From positions 2,108,001 through 2,172,000 of the forward strand of contig JAJFPB010000006.1 of the NCBI GenBank assembly GCA_020881915.1: a stretch of DNA of 64,000 bases, given 5' to 3'. The notes beneath the pieces were generated by a model. That model was given only the letters and a program-made list of their open reading frames with translations. It searched no databases and was not told where the DNA came from. Shown here one piece after another: positions 658 to 56,079 of the stretch (positions are counted from its first letter, which is position 1; each line of letters starts with the position of its first letter). Source of the DNA: Paramyrothecium sp. XJ0827. Lineage: Eukaryota; Ascomycota; Sordariomycetes; Hypocreales; Stachybotryaceae. The translations under genes and the position numbers were made by a program.

Positions 658-1806
658 CTACAAGATCCCTCCTGGTACGGTGCCGCCAATGAGGATAGCA
701 TCCGCCGCAGCATCATCCTTGACTTCCTCTCGGATGTCCTCGGGGAAGTAGATGCCATTGACCGTGTCAGGGTTGGTATCGTTGATGCAACTAATCCTTC
801 CAAAGTAGTAACTGTGGTCGGTGATGCTGATGGGGAGCGAGAGGTTGGCGTTGCATCCAAAGTTTTGGTTGCCCAGGCAAGTCTTGATGTCGGCAATCGG
901 CCAGCGGTTGGGGTCGGCCGGGGTGCCAGTGAGCCAGATTTCAGGGGATGTGTGCGCATATCCCAAAACTACCAGAGGCACCTTTGGGACCACGTCGCCG
1001 TTGTGCGTCACTCGGTAGAGGCGTCCTGGTTGACCGCTGATGAAGTCGCTGAACTTGTCATTGCCGACGCGCGGCTGCCCGTACGTGTACAGGTCCAGCC
1101 TGTAGCCGTCCACAGCGCGCAGGTGGGCCGCGGCGATCGTAACGATGGCACCCCCGAGGGAGTGGCCCGTGAGGACGACCTTGTAGTTGGGGTAGCTGAC
1201 GATGGTCTGAAACAGCGCGGTTCGCACGTCCCGAGCGATCTCGTTCCAAGCATTGTAGAAGCCGCGGTGCATCCAAGCCCCCGGGGCCAGAAGACTGTCG
1301 ATGGCCTTGAAGTCTAGGTTAGTTGCCCAGTTCTTGTCCGTGACGGTACCGCGAGCGGCGAAGACGATTTCTTTCCGCGAGTCCACGCGGGCCACGTAGC
1401 CTGCGATATCATTCCCCGTACTGTCGAATGCCATTCATTAGTGTTGGGGTTCTGTCGCCTGAAATGTGGATTAGGGCAATGAATACATGAATGACTGGAC
1501 AACGACACCCTTGTCCGTGAGAAGTCGGTTGCAGTTCGATTCACACTTGAGTGGCTGTCCGGCCGGTGTGTTGTAGTTGCAGTACGCAGCGCCGGCGTAC
1601 TCGGCGTAAAGGTCAAGACGATCTAGTTCCGAAGATGTGATCGCCACTACCCTCCATTGTCAGAAATTGCCGAAAAGAATGCACATACAAGCTGCGCTAA
1701 AGTTGTTGGTACCTGCTGTCTCCTCCCTCTCCAGCAAGGAGAGAGGGGTCGCAAGAGCAAGGCCGGCTACGGCGGCAAGCGATAGGACGGTTCGGCACAG
1801 CATCAT
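658..1806 (-). CDS. Secreted class 3 lipase (alpha/beta hydrolase)
   Basis: Predicted secreted triacylglycerol lipase or esterase of the fungal lipase class 3 family. The model has three exons: 1806-1689, 1622-1487 and 1420-658, with GT-AG introns of 66 nt each. It gives 338 residues. Residues 1-20 form a signal peptide (MMLCRTVLSLAAVAGLALAT). The nucleophile elbow GHSLGG places Ser172 as catalytic. Asp227 (in THNGDVVP) and His287 (in TDHSYYFG) complete the triad by family position. The RLDLYAEYAGAAYC segment near residue 41 is typical of the N-terminal helix of these lipases, and FAARGT is the usual strand before the oxyanion region. Splicing at 1421/1486 joins VVVQSF to ITGNDIAGYVA, which restores the expected family sequence. 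A TATAAA lies about 107 bp upstream. Substrate preference (fat, cutin or feruloyl ester) cannot be read from the sequence. The family call is firm. Confidence 0.93.
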
Positions 1807-3019: not shown

Positions 3020-3314
3020 TCATTCGTAGTACGGGGTTGATTGTACCAACACCATCACGGCTGTCCCTCGAGCAACGGGTCGGAGAGGTTCCGATTCGGC
3101 TTGGCTTCTGCCTGTCTCTAGATCGTAATCTTTTGATTTCGAGTTAGAACTAATCCAACCTTCGAACTCCATGTATTGGTGGCTGACAACTCTTACTTCT
3201 TGAGTGTCTTTGGATCAAGTTTCCTCTCCAGAGTTGCCAGGCTATCAGGGCCAGTGGAGGGAGGTTGACGACCACCCCCAGGATTGCAATGATGGCTTCA
3301 GTCGAGATCGCCAT
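3020..3314 (-). CDS. Single-pass membrane microprotein, copy A
   Basis: An unnamed 69-residue protein in two exons, 3314-3197 and 3111-3020. The 85-nt intron has donor GTAAGA, a CTAAC branch site and a CAG acceptor. The N terminus (MAISTEAIIAILGVVVNLPP) begins a hydrophobic segment that runs to about residue 29 and ends in AWQLW. A basic, polar tail follows. The protein has no signal-peptide look; a signal-anchor with a short lumenal end is inferred. The model is supported by a paralogue at 7700-7993, which has the same exon structure. The first 29 residues match at 24 positions, and exon 2 aligns without gaps around AESEPLRPVAR versus AEAELLQPLAR. The unspliced frame would give a 54-residue protein with a non-matching end. 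An acceptor 6 nt earlier is also possible. Function is unknown. Confidence 0.62.
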
Positions 3315-3606
3315 GAGTTAGTTGGACTGATTTGAGGTCTTTAGATCAGAAGACTGTGGAGGAATTTGGGGGAGAATGGCATGAATTGGTCGTAGTGATT
3401 TGACCGAATTTTCCTTGCCTTCGTCAAGTGCATAGCAGCTTATGTGTCGGGAGGTCGTTCAAGCACCGATCGAAACAAGGATTATCCGGTAAGTGAGGCT
3501 GTAGTGAAGGGTGAAAGTTCTGATAAATCAGGGCCCGTGGCCCCGTCCTTCTATATGCACAGTAATTTTTGTACATGACTTGTCGGCGCCATTAGTTTCA
3601 CTTTCC

Positions 3607-3706
3607 ACCATCCTCACGCACTACCACCACCCTCATGCACAGCACTACCAACATCCTCATGCACCAACCCCTTGCTCATGCACGACCCCCGTGCTCATGC
3701 ATGCAT
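3607..3706. repeat. Degenerate CCTCATGCAC-type tandem repeat
   Basis: Several imperfect copies of a unit containing CTCATGCAC alternate with CACTACCA-like spacers. The array ends in CATGCATG. It is non-coding by appearance. Confidence 0.6.
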
Positions 3707-4158
3707 AGCCACCGCCCATGATGCTTAGAGAATATGCCGGATCCTTCGGATTTTTGCTTGCCTCTGAAGTCCTGAGTAAATACTTATTATCGGTAGATTT
3801 GGGCTTCTCTATCGCAGATAATTATATGTAGCCGAAGGACGCAGGCGTTCTCTTGAATACGTGAAGACACTGCCGCCTGCTGGCCCTCGTTTCTCTACTG
3901 CATGTTGATGCTGTTCGTAGAAGTGTTTGCGCAAGGCTTAGCCGATGCATGGCCACGATCGCGGCTCTCAAGTAGGGCAGATTTGGGTGTGCAGATTAGA
4001 GAAATGGAATGATCCAGCGATAGTGATTGGCGCGACCTCGTGTTGGACTCTTCTAGTTTAAAGTAGCGGAACAAATTGGGGCAGGTCAAACTGACAGGGA
4101 ACACGGTGAGATGGCTGTCTACAGGTAGTTATGTTCTGCGGGGATGGGACGTATATTT

Positions 4159-4304
4159 TGGGACGAGTCGAGGGATGGAGTTTGGGACGATTTGGGATGA
4201 TTTGGGACGAGTCGAGGGACTAGGGACTAGGGACTAGGGACAGTGGACGAGGGACAGGGGACGAGAGACAGGGGACTATAGAGGGACAGGGGACGAAGGA
4301 CGAG
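4159..4304. repeat. GGGAC-based minisatellite
   Basis: Direct repeats of a core GGGAC followed by 2-5 variable bases. Three perfect GGGACTA copies sit in the middle, flanked by TTTGGGACGA units on the left and GGGACAG/GGGACGA units on the right. The plus strand is strongly purine-rich. It is not the fungal telomere unit (TTAGGG), so a telomeric origin is not supported. Confidence 0.75.
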
Positions 4305-7300
4305 TTTTAGGTATTGCAGGGCATTTTAGGCAGGTCTTTTAAGAACCTACCTACCTACCTACCTAGTAGTACTATAAGATTTAGTATTTGAAGATCTACC
4401 TAAGTACTGCGAGATTTAGGTCTGTATGAGATTACAAAGGCTTGACGAGAGCTTAGGTTGGGTTTACTGAGATAATACGTAGACTCTCAAACCCAATTAT
4501 AAGTCCTCACTACTCACCTCTCCTGTTGTCACAGGCTACTTTGTGAATCGTTCAAGACATCGAAAACTGATGCCCAGATTCCCTCTTGAACGGCTGTCGG
4601 TTTCCATAAACCGGATTCGGATCAGTTTCTATATTCAATAATCGCTAACCAATTCTTTGACAGGTTTGGCGACATCTCGGTATGGTTACAGAGAACAGCT
4701 CTGCAATTGAGGCAACAAACTTGCACAACATAGATTTCCCGGTCGCTGTTTACACTCTGCAAGACAATGAGCCACCAAGCTGCCTTTTAGCGACGCAAGC
4801 TTTGGTGACCTGTCACTTCTCAAGAGCCGAGGAATAGGGCTAGCGTGACTTCCCATTACTTGAGCTTGTTGGGCAAACTGTCAACTTGTCGCTAAGTCAG
4901 TTAGATAGATAAGTAGAGACTCCGGGCATGCCTGCTCTCCCGATGCCTGACTTCTTACTGCCGCCTGACACGGCCAGACAGGATCAGAGCTTGCAGCCTG
5001 ATTTGGGTTTCACCAGGTTCTCTCGAGTTGTATCAGCCAGTTACTTCGTTTTCTGGGCCCCGAAAATCCGCCTCGAAATTCGCCTCTCCGTGGAGAAAGG
5101 TCTTTTTAGAGGCGTCTTAAAAAGTCACGGTCTGGGGCCGCTCTAGTGCATCGATAGGCATTCGAAAGCGTGTCCAGAGCTCGGGGTATTGTGAGATCAA
5201 GCCGCGCACACAAGCGGGTTTGACGCCGCAGCGGTCTCAAGCGATGTACTAAAATGCTCCACAGTCTGACCTTGCGAAAGGAGAGGGAAAGCGGTGTGCC
5301 ACACGCCTTTTTGGGAGTAAGTACAAACAGAAACGCTCAGAAAAGAACTAGGAATAAGTAAAAAAACTCATGCCTGAAATGCATCTGGCATCGTAGAGCA
5401 GTATGTCACTCTCTTCACAAACAGCTATTGCATGACTGAACATCTGTGGTTTAGTGCTCTGGACTTTTTCATGCGAGGCCTGTCGTCGGCCCACCATGTC
5501 TGGAATTCCGCAAACACTCTACATTCAAGCAGACATTACAGCAATGGATATCTTCAAGCTCCCCTCTGGTACATTTTTCATAGCCGCAGAATGAGCGGTT
5601 TGCAACTGATCAATGTGTCAAGTGAACTATATTCCCTAGGTATACCCGCATTATCAAGATGATGAAAGGCGGTGTCTTGCATCAAGCCTTGTCCATACCC
5701 CTTTGCATTTGTGGGCCTCGGCTTATTCCATCATGGAAAGAGCAGCTGTCAAGACAAAATCTTACCATCTCAACAAATCTTTGACGCTTGCGACGCTTCG
5801 GCATTGCCGCTTCGAAACTCGCACACGCCGTATTTTTCTATTCATGATGGTGTATTTCACTCACAACATTGAAGATGAATTTCCCTTCTCGAGGGAGGAT
5901 TTCAAACCTAAGCTGGACTACGTTTGCAAGCCATAATTTTGCCGATATACATAAGGATCTCAGTTCGCTTTTCCAAGCTGCCCCTGGACAAATTTTATTG
6001 TTCGACACGAAGTGTCTCTTTATTCCGGCTTGGTCGATCATGGAGACTTCTTAACGACAAGATGACCGAGCGTCTTGTGAATTTTCTACGGAATATGTTA
6101 TCAGTGTGTGAAGAGCGGGTCCAAACGGACAATCCGGACATTGCTAGCTATAGCTCTCTCAAAACTCTGGTAATGGAAGTGACGGTCGAACTGGTCGTTA
6201 ACAGTCAAAATTATCCTTGTTTTGCTTTTGAATATTTGGGAGCGACCGTGGAGGCTGGAAAACCTAATGGATACCTGGGGTATTGTCAAAATTCCTGGGA
6301 AATGATTATTAGGGAAGATTAGTGGCTGTTATTGTGAAACGCTAAGAAATGAGTAAGGTGTGATGGGAAGACTCAGATGTTGCTTCGCAGAAATCATGGA
6401 AGAGCTTTGTGTACTAACTAACTCTGGAGAGGAATTGAAGCTGACTGCGTTGTTTTAACCTTGACATCCATATCTTTGCAAGTATCTCATCTTAAGAATT
6501 TTCAAGCAACCCTTGACCCCTGAATCTTCACAGCAAGCTTTGGACGCTGCTTTGCGAAAGGAAAAATAGGGCGGCTGACTCGTTTGCGCGCAGACATGAC
6601 TATGATATGCAATGAGCTAAGCCGTCTTTATTCTCATTCGTTTAATTTGCATCTTAGTATGTCTCCCCAAACTGGCTCGCGACGGCAACAAATTCACGTG
6701 GAGTATTCATGGGGCCTCACTGTACCAGTTGTCAGCGTTCCTGACAGTTTGGTCATTCTGAGGTAAACTTGCTCCAGCCATGGACACGCTTCGCTTCGCA
6801 ATGCTTCTGGCGAAGTACCACAGCAACTTGGGGATGACAATATTAAGCCCGAATAAACAACAGTGATGTTGGCTCCCTTGGCAATTCTCGGTATCACTGA
6901 GTTGCAGAAACCCATTTCCAAACAAATCGTACAAGGTTGAGATCGGTAGAGAATCCTTGCGCTTGAAATGACCAATCCTAAGGAATGTGCCCAGTTTATG
7001 GGCCGCTGTGGTTCGCATTGAAAGTGAGCTGCGATACGAATGCTGCGTAAAAAAGAATCGGAAAAATCCGATGATACATCATGCGCAAACTTTGTCGAAT
7101 TGCATCACAGCATTGCCTCAGTCGAGCTCGTAGAGGGTCTCACGTCACAGCCAGACCTCATGCTTCTTGTGCACATGCTGAGTCAAGATGTGGGATTCTA
7201 ATGCCGAATTTACTGCTTTGGCTCGAGGCCTGTATTTAGATGGTCACTGGTCATTGTCAGGACGTCCGGGATAGCCAAGAGGTGCGACAATCGTCATGCG

Positions 7301-7699
7301 CCAGTATTAAACATGTGAACTCAGCCTTAATATCTTTATCGTGGAAGACTTCAGGGCTTTGACTGGCACAATGTTTGGGCAGGTTGTGACGAATTTCGTT
7401 CAAGTTACGATGAACAATAAGAGACAAGCTGTTACAGGGTAACTGAGACACTGGGATCATAGCACCGGACAAGCCGGCGCCGGAACAAGGCCCACTAACA
7501 GCTATATAACGGCCGCTCCCCCGGGACCTAGCTAGTCTTCTCCTTCTTCCCCTTATGCAGTTAAATAACATCGTCAAGGACCGCATCCAGAGACCTCTAG
7601 ATGCCGCCCCCTTACACAAGCATTCCAGGGTCACATGGGAATACGTGTAAGCCCAGGCCCAATAATGAAAGCATGGGATACGAATATCCTTTCAAGCCA

Positions 7700-7993
7700 T
7701 CATACGATGCTATCAACGGACCGTACCAACAGTATCATGTCTGTCCTTCGAGCCAAAGGTTGGAGGAGCTCAGCTTCTGCATGCCTCCTGCCAGCGAATG
7801 ACGCGTGTTCTAAATTTAAAAAATTAAAAAAACCACGTTAGTGATTACACAGTATGGATTGGTTATTCGAGGGAACGTGAGAATACTTGCTTCTTGCTTG
7901 TTTTTCCCAAAGCTGCCATGCTATAAAAATGAGGGGTGGGAGGTTAATTACTACTCCGAGAATAGCGATGACGGCTTCGGTTGAGAGCGCCAT
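7700..7993 (-). CDS. Single-pass membrane microprotein, copy B
   Basis: A 64-residue paralogue of the protein at 3020-3314. Its two exons are 7993-7887 and 7787-7700. The 99-nt intron has donor GTATTC, a CACTAAC branch site and a GGCAG acceptor. A GC donor (GCAAGT) 3 nt upstream, paired with an ATTTAG acceptor, would also keep frame, so the exact junction is open. The N-terminal hydrophobic segment is MALSTEAVIAILGVVINLPP followed by LIFIAWQLW. The tail contains RHAEAELLQPLARRTD. Between the copies most codon differences in the membrane segment are synonymous, which suggests selection on the protein. Reading through the intron would give an unrelated, poorly conserved end. Function is unknown; an integral-membrane location is inferred. 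Confidence 0.62.
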
Positions 7994-55478: not shown

Positions 55479-55994
55479 CTAGTTGTCGGGCTCCAGTTCG
55501 CCAACCTTGATGGGAGGCTTGTCTGGGATGAGGGGGCCGCCGGGGATAGTTGGGTCGGGGATGAGAGGACCCCCGGGGATGGTTGGGTCGGGAATGATGG
55601 GGCCCACGACGATCGGCTTGCCAATGATGAAGTCCTTCTTCGTGCTGGGGACGATGGGACCGCCGGGGATGTAAGGGTCAGGGACGATGGGGCCGACCTT
55701 GATCGGCTTGCCGATAATGATGTCCCTCTTCGTGCTGGGGATGAGAGGGCCGCCCGGAATTGTGGGGTCCGGGATGATGGGGCCGGTGATCGGCTCGCCG
55801 ATGATGATGTCTCCCGGCGTGACCGACTCCGGGATCAGAGGGCCACCGGGGATCGTTGGGTCAGGGATGATGGGTCCCACAATCGGCGGGCCGATGGTGA
55901 ACTGTCTCTTTGCAAGCTCTGAGGCATCCTGTCCTACTGGGAGGGCCTCGGTCAGGGCCGCAAGCCCGACGAGGATCGCTGTGATGGACCGCAT
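55479..55994 (-). CDS. Secreted repeat protein with Kex2-type dibasic sites
   Basis: An intronless 171-residue protein. A signal peptide occupies about residues 1-17 (MRSITAILVGLAALTEA) and a short pro-segment ends at Lys29-Arg30. After it the sequence repeats with a 30-residue period. Units start at 31, 61, 91 and 121. The core is GPIIPDPTIPGGPLIP with small changes (GPIVPDPYIPGGPIVP in the third). The units are bounded by KR at 89-90 and KK at 119-120, with TPG at the 60 boundary. The last unit has an extra DPTIPGGPLIP copy and a short tail. This layout matches kexin-processed repeat proteins of fungi, which include repellent-type surface peptides, pheromone-like precursors and RiPP precursors. 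There is no Cys and only one Tyr. The product and role are unknown. No UstY-type or tyrosinase neighbour was found in the window. Confidence 0.82.
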   Translation of the reverse strand: MRSITAILVGLAALTEALPVGQDASELAKRQFTIGPPIVGPIIPDPTIPGGPLIPESVTPGDIIIGEPITGPIIPDPTIPGGPLIPSTKRDIIIGKPIKVGPIVPDPYIPGGPIVPSTKKDFIIGKPIVVGPIIPDPTIPGGPLIPDPTIPGGPLIPDKPPIKVGELEPDN

Positions 55995-56079
55995 GTTGAA
56001 GGTAGAGAGCCGTCCGTAGTCTGACAACTATCAAGGTTGCTGCGCACGCGAATTCTGGGATCGTGGTCTGGACCAACAA

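Follow-up and report, generated by a model that had tools for sequence, protein, structure and literature searches.

Two minus-strand loci of Paramyrothecium sp. XJ0827 belong to an unnamed family of predicted single-span membrane microproteins

The 64,000-nucleotide stretch of Paramyrothecium sp. XJ0827 analysed here (contig JAJFPB010000006.1; C12:2108001-2172000 in a genome of 51.8 Mb in 15 contigs), hereafter the window, carries two minus-strand loci that encode short, related proteins with a hydrophobic N-terminal anchor. Their ATG start codons lie at 3314 (copy 1) and 7993 (copy 2), and the spliced models encode 69 residues, or 71 with a nearby acceptor, and 64 residues, respectively. A first-pass annotation of the window had proposed both loci, and their strand, coordinates, 69- and 64-residue spliced models and intron boundaries were reproduced from the sequence. 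The features are the following:

3197..3314, minus strand: copy 1 exon 1, with the start codon, the membrane anchor MAISTEAIIAILGVVVNLPPLALIAWQLW and a basic flank; under selection, and matched by a profile of outside proteins (E-value 5.4e-13).
3112..3196, minus strand: copy 1 intron (predicted), with donor GTAAGA, CTAAC at 3147-3143 and acceptor CAG at 3112; an alternative in-frame acceptor TAG lies at 3118.
3020..3111, minus strand: copy 1 exon 2, a polar tail ending in PVARGTAVMVLVQSTPYYE, then the stop; aligned without gaps to copy 2, with weak signs of selection and a tail score above all 1000 shuffles.
7887..7993, minus strand: copy 2 exon 1, with the start codon, the membrane anchor MALSTEAVIAILGVVINLPPLIFIAWQLW and a flank; under selection, and matched by the same outside profile (E-value 8.3e-10).
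7788..7886, minus strand: copy 2 intron (predicted), with donor GTATTC, CTAAC at 7841-7837 and acceptor CAG at 7788; a higher-scoring TTTAG acceptor at 7810 leads to 48 residues.
7700..7787, minus strand: copy 2 exon 2, a polar tail ending in PLARRTDMILLVRSVDSIV, then the stop; less certain than copy 1 exon 2.

Comparing the 2-kb surroundings of the two copies gave a single significant alignment (172 of 280 columns identical, E-value 3e-17), which runs from four bases 5' of the ATG into exon 2 and then stops. Two other matches had E-values of 0.63 and 1.7, and no flanks are shared within these surroundings. When the genome was searched at the DNA level, each locus matched only itself. The aligned region carries a clear signature of selection at its 5' end. 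Codons 1-30 differ by 18 synonymous and eight non-synonymous changes, with proportions of synonymous (pS) and non-synonymous (pN) differences of 0.78 and 0.12 (pN/pS 0.15, Fisher p 8e-9), and none of 20,000 random-mutation simulations yielded so few amino-acid changes. No comparable synonymous excess appeared when this stretch was translated in either of the alternative frames. The earlier counts of 24 identical residues among the first 29, and of 12 synonymous against three non-synonymous changes in the first 20 codons, were exact on recount. The exon-2 frames, as had also been noted, align without gaps, and both end in TGA after 30 aligned residues. Over these 30 codons, we counted 10 synonymous and 22 non-synonymous changes (pN/pS 0.77, p 0.25), a result equalled in 6015 of 20,000 simulations, while the first 15 codons had a pN/pS of 0.37 (p 0.048) with nine of 13 changes at third positions. 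The selection on the protein claimed in the first-pass annotation therefore holds for the N-terminal segment but is weak for exon 2. Still, the gapless alignment to a common stop means that the exon-2 frame remains favoured.

Splice sites were scored with a rough model whose weights are approximate. The best donors follow 118 nucleotides in copy 1 (phase 1) and 107 nucleotides in copy 2 (phase 2), so that the intron, previously placed at the same site in both genes, is in fact close in position but not identical. The frame is nevertheless preserved, because the donor and acceptor shifts total 15 nucleotides. In copy 1, the in-frame acceptors giving 71, 69 and 75 residues scored 19.5, 18.3 and 16.7, and an out-of-frame one giving 56 residues scored 16.7; the two best-scoring acceptors are both in frame. 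In copy 2, the acceptor homologous to that of copy 1, which gives 64 residues, is not the best-scoring one (14.4 versus 15.9 for the TTTAG acceptor with its 48-residue product). Confidence in exon 2 is lower than in exon 1, especially for copy 2.

Searches of the whole genome showed that the two copies are not alone. The copy 1 query found three further loci, and a query with the locus on contig C10 added one more. A degenerate anchor pattern matched six loci, compared with one for the pattern read backward. With a consensus query, eight loci were found (E-values 6.8e-6 to 0.015), each aligned from the initial methionine (Met1), and the reversed consensus found none in the genome. Besides the window pair, these are C2:1469682 (plus), C8:5421553 (minus), C10:4945826 (minus), C12:3795606 (plus; C12b below), C14:2713087 (minus) and C15:2400528 (minus). 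Not every member retrieves the others: the C15 query returned itself and C10 only, the C14 query itself only, and the C8 query reached no other locus through the anchor. The latter query also gave matches to its tail at C1:501524 (E-value 0.028) and C10:3467981 (E-value 0.28), which lie outside the anchor; neither was taken as a member. The description of two dispersed copies was thus right about the relationship of the pair but understated the family, which by the consensus search has at least eight loci in this genome. Among the 28 pairs that can be formed from these loci, which are not independent, pN was below pS in 27 for codons 2-12 and in all 28 for codons 13-27.

Relatives were also found in other fungi. 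An alignment of the eight models, searched against a protein database, returned five proteins at an E-value of 10 or less among 3161 candidates:

N431DRAFT_472912, Stipitochalara longipes: hypothetical protein, E-value 3.5e-7.
V8E51_018593 (P0002), Hyaloscypha variabilis: hypothetical protein, E-value 4.9e-7.
P0003, 60 residues, source lgn: E-value 5.4e-6.
F4859DRAFT_487286, Xylaria cf. heliscus: hypothetical protein, E-value 4.5e-4.
HJFPF1_13222 (P0005), Paramyrothecium foliicola: hypothetical protein, E-value 2.9, not significant in that search.

The four named homologues come from Leotiomycetes and Sordariomycetes and are 64-156 residues long. They have the same anchor as the window copies, while their tails are unlike those of the window copies, save for a modest likeness between the tails of the Hyaloscypha protein and copy 1. 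A profile built from just two outside anchors, those of the Stipitochalara and Xylaria proteins, ranked the eight loci at the top of 6063 open reading frames (ORFs), which were drawn from the window and thirteen other stretches, twelve of these fetched because they surround family members. The window copies came first and third (E-values as listed above), and the last of the eight had an E-value of 0.0022 compared with 1.2 for the next best ORF; the two profile proteins had themselves been found with an alignment containing the window copies. Judged by these comparisons, the gene family and its anchor are almost certainly real. As a separate observation, the first 30 residues of P0003 are identical to the Stipitochalara anchor, but there is no relation between the tails, as would be expected of an ORF that was read into an intron.

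The anchor, which is under purifying selection and by which we define the family here as the EAIIA-anchor microproteins, comprises about 30 residues and follows the pattern M-x-h-S-x-E-[AS]-h-h-A, continuing into a hydrophobic stretch, which has one or two prolines close to its middle, and then into basic residues. Conserved S4, E6 and A10, aligned from Met1, are present in the family alignments and in the outside-only profile. In all 13 proteins examined, the best 19-residue hydrophobic stretch starts at residue 7-10, is preceded by no lysine or arginine and one or two acidic residues, and is followed by one to six lysines or arginines within the next 15 residues. Under the positive-inside rule, this distribution predicts that the N-terminus faces outward and the C-terminus inward, and the proteins probably span the membrane once in this orientation. 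An AlphaFold2 model of the Stipitochalara protein (four sequences), which is of low confidence (predicted local distance difference test 64.1, predicted template modelling score 0.27), has a helix at 5-16, a break before the second proline, a helix at 20-44 and a tail without structure.

The tails fall into at least three groups, namely copies 1 and 2; C10, C12b and C15; and C8 with the Paramyrothecium foliicola protein. Within each of these subgroups, tail scores beat those of shuffled sequences. The C8 copy (L035:9152-9592, minus) is a 134-residue open frame that needs no intron, and its long tail matches HJFPF1_13222 with a score of 105, above all 1000 shuffles, which fits a gene retained in a related order. 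C10 (L037:9620-9868, minus), C12b (L039:9576-9848, plus, with L040) and C15 (L043:9367-9546, minus) have a common second tail type, and in each of them some 50-56 codons are probably followed by a phase-0 intron. In exon 2 of this trio the codon changes are mixed, with pN below pS in two of three pairs. Across groups, likeness was found for C12b and C8 (shuffle value 0.003), P0002 and copy 1 (0.006), P0004 and C10 (0.011), and P0004 and C15 (0.041), and the remaining 40 of the 49 tail comparisons gave values above 0.05, all uncorrected for their number. For C12b, C15 and copy 2, the exon-2 models were picked for likeness, which biases these values upward and favours the grouping of the tails; by splice score, the C12b model ranks fourth and the other two second. 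To the eye, all members seemed to end in a shared C-terminal strand motif, but we do not claim it.

No Pfam or NCBIfam model matched the family proteins at its cut-off; the weak hits below it were DUF4401, DUF5324, DUF1418 and PRK10591 (E-values 0.063-0.24). Copy 1 had no match among PDB sequences, and 45 pattern matches in viral contigs included no relative. No paper was found by the anchor motifs or the locus tags of the homologues, and none was evident under general terms. With its selected anchor and its hypothetical homologues in Pezizomycotina, the family is as undescribed as the first-pass annotation had supposed. Although it has no name, its kind is known, that of the single-span membrane microproteins. 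At least eight loci with a selected anchor frame and no model or name found for them show that spliced membrane microproteins escape annotation, and a profile of the 30-residue anchor would allow such genes to be found in other fungal genomes. Passages of a survey of fungal ORFs of up to 80 residues contain no mention of the family (PMC7394265). The conserved small ORFs that those passages describe are the same general kind of overlooked small gene.

Two known proteins offer a functional comparison. Ost4, the smallest oligosaccharyltransferase subunit, is tiny and spans the membrane once, and like it the anchor family could consist of tiny single-span proteins serving as subunits. The Pfam model Ost4 recognises yeast Ost4 but no anchor-family member. 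Unlike the anchor family, Pmp1 is not known to have an E-A-I-I-A motif, mid-helix prolines or a long tail, and the Pfam model PMP1_2 recognises Pmp1 and none of the family members, so there is no sequence relation. The likeness of Pmp1 and Pmp2 lies in how such proteins might work rather than in membership, as these too are tiny single-span proteins with a basic tail. According to passages of PMC6521590, Pmp1 and Pmp2 act on the H+-ATPase in yeast.

We propose that copies 1 and 2 are paralogues in a Pezizomycotina family that has no name as yet and consists of single-span membrane microproteins, small regulators or adaptors that would dock by their anchor, a reading that we hold to be an even call as a whole. 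Insertion would be of the signal-anchor type, leaving the short, acidic N-terminus on the outer or lumenal side and the tail in the cytosol. Prolines would kink the anchor helix, and the conserved glutamate and small residues of its first helix would contact a particular larger membrane protein. Serving as a small adaptor or regulatory subunit, the microprotein would use its tail to contact a partner in the cytosol. A conserved anchor with a glutamate and mid-helix prolines, combined with divergent tails, fits a small subunit docking on a larger membrane protein. The regulator or adaptor role itself, drawn by analogy, is possible but somewhat doubtful. More speculatively, one docking helix might bind a single conserved Pezizomycotina membrane partner while the unrelated tail types (that of copies 1 and 2, that of C10, C12b and C15, and that of C8 and its relative in Paramyrothecium) recruit different partners from the cytosol, an extension that we think rather unlikely. 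If the anchor does bind one partner, a pull-down would expose the complex in the membrane and show what each type of tail contributes.

Several points weigh against this proposal. The consensus was built from members, so the eight-locus result is a collection rather than a test, and the empty result with the reversed query by itself shows little. Queried singly against protein databases, the two spliced window proteins gave no match, and the outside homologues were reached by the eight-model alignment and not by single-protein queries. Exon 2 appears to be little selected, and in copy 2 splicing may cut the tail short, to a product of 48 residues. The evidence is from sequence, and no result favours a regulator over another membrane role.

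Part of this evidence would also suit a simpler gene structure, in which the unspliced frames are the real products, proteins of 54 and 51 residues consisting of the anchor and a short polar end, and exon 2 is an untranslated remnant. Both unspliced frames are open to these lengths, and the slight selection on exon 2, the weak donor of copy 2 and the rank of its homologous acceptor agree with it. This is unlikely, as exon 2 aligns without gaps to a common stop with mostly third-position changes in its first half, and the annotated Leotiomycete homologues of 64 and 70 residues end in a similar tail, although only P0002 and copy 1 beat shuffles there (0.006, uncorrected). The hydrophobic segment might instead be a cleaved signal peptide and the tail a secreted peptide, given a short protein with an N-terminal hydrophobic stretch and tails that vary among subgroups. 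An ordinary signal peptide has the reverse charge pattern, a basic n-region before the hydrophobic stretch, whereas all 13 proteins carry their basic residues directly after it; the conserved part, moreover, is the hydrophobic segment and not the tail, and we consider this reading improbable. That the loci are non-coding or mobile-element debris staying open by chance is extremely unlikely. Dispersal of the copies would suit such debris, as would the presence of hAT and Helitron-like ORFs near the C2 copy and of copia-type ORFs near the C15 copy, but the synonymous excess is specific to one frame, homologues occur in two fungal classes, and the window loci share neither flanks nor DNA-level matches elsewhere in the genome.

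The genomic neighbourhoods raise a further alternative, that the family members are membrane proteins which execute or trigger NLR/HET-type cell death in fungi, paired with nearby NLR genes through a tail motif in the manner of HET-S/NWD2-like pairs. A Pfam scan of the nine or ten longest ORFs around each of seven family places revealed NLR-, HET- or ankyrin-type neighbours for several paralogues. The C10 copy has an NPHP3_N-type NLR at a distance of about 3.3 kb, the C14 copy is surrounded by HET and NPHP3_N genes, and a HET gene lies 5.4 kb from the C8 copy. We compared these distances with the density of such genes, entering 130 of 139 NPHP3_N matches (nine that were second fragments of an adjacent match were dropped, three similar fragments kept, and ankyrin genes not counted) and the 150 HET matches listed of 293 candidates, so that the HET density is a lower bound. 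Of the seven places, three had an NLR or HET match from these lists at 10 kb or less, which was equalled in 233 of 5000 trials with random positions on the same contigs and in 870 of 5000 with local shifts. At 5 kb, there were two of seven places (345 random and 1029 local of 5000), and at 20 kb three of seven (907 and 2488 of 5000). The window pair itself lies 36 kb from the closest NLR or HET gene among the matches listed. The frames around the C10 NLR showed no matching motif by eye, and no systematic comparison was made. The link had been pursued for its striking neighbours and is not supported after the density control; we regard it as very improbable.

Some neighbouring features are described for their own sake. 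Within 10 kb, the C14 neighbourhood (L041:1-6785 and L042:945-2975) contains two HET genes, an NPHP3_N nucleoside triphosphatase beside a PNP_UDP_1 ORF, and an NYN/OST-HTH ORF. On the stretch around the C10 copy, L037:169-2046 (minus) is a protein-arginine deiminase ORF (PF03068, E-value 2.6e-117) in a fungal genome. In the window itself, where Rfam and transfer RNA scans were empty, a class-3 lipase ORF at 661-1434 (minus; PF01764, E-value 2.3e-33) shares its strand with copy 1 and lies about 1.6 kb downstream of it. At 4190-4300, short degenerate repeats (gggactaggga / gggacga type) were seen by eye, and a 182-residue open frame at 55479-56027 (minus) consists mostly of repeats of the type IPDPTIPGGPLIP.

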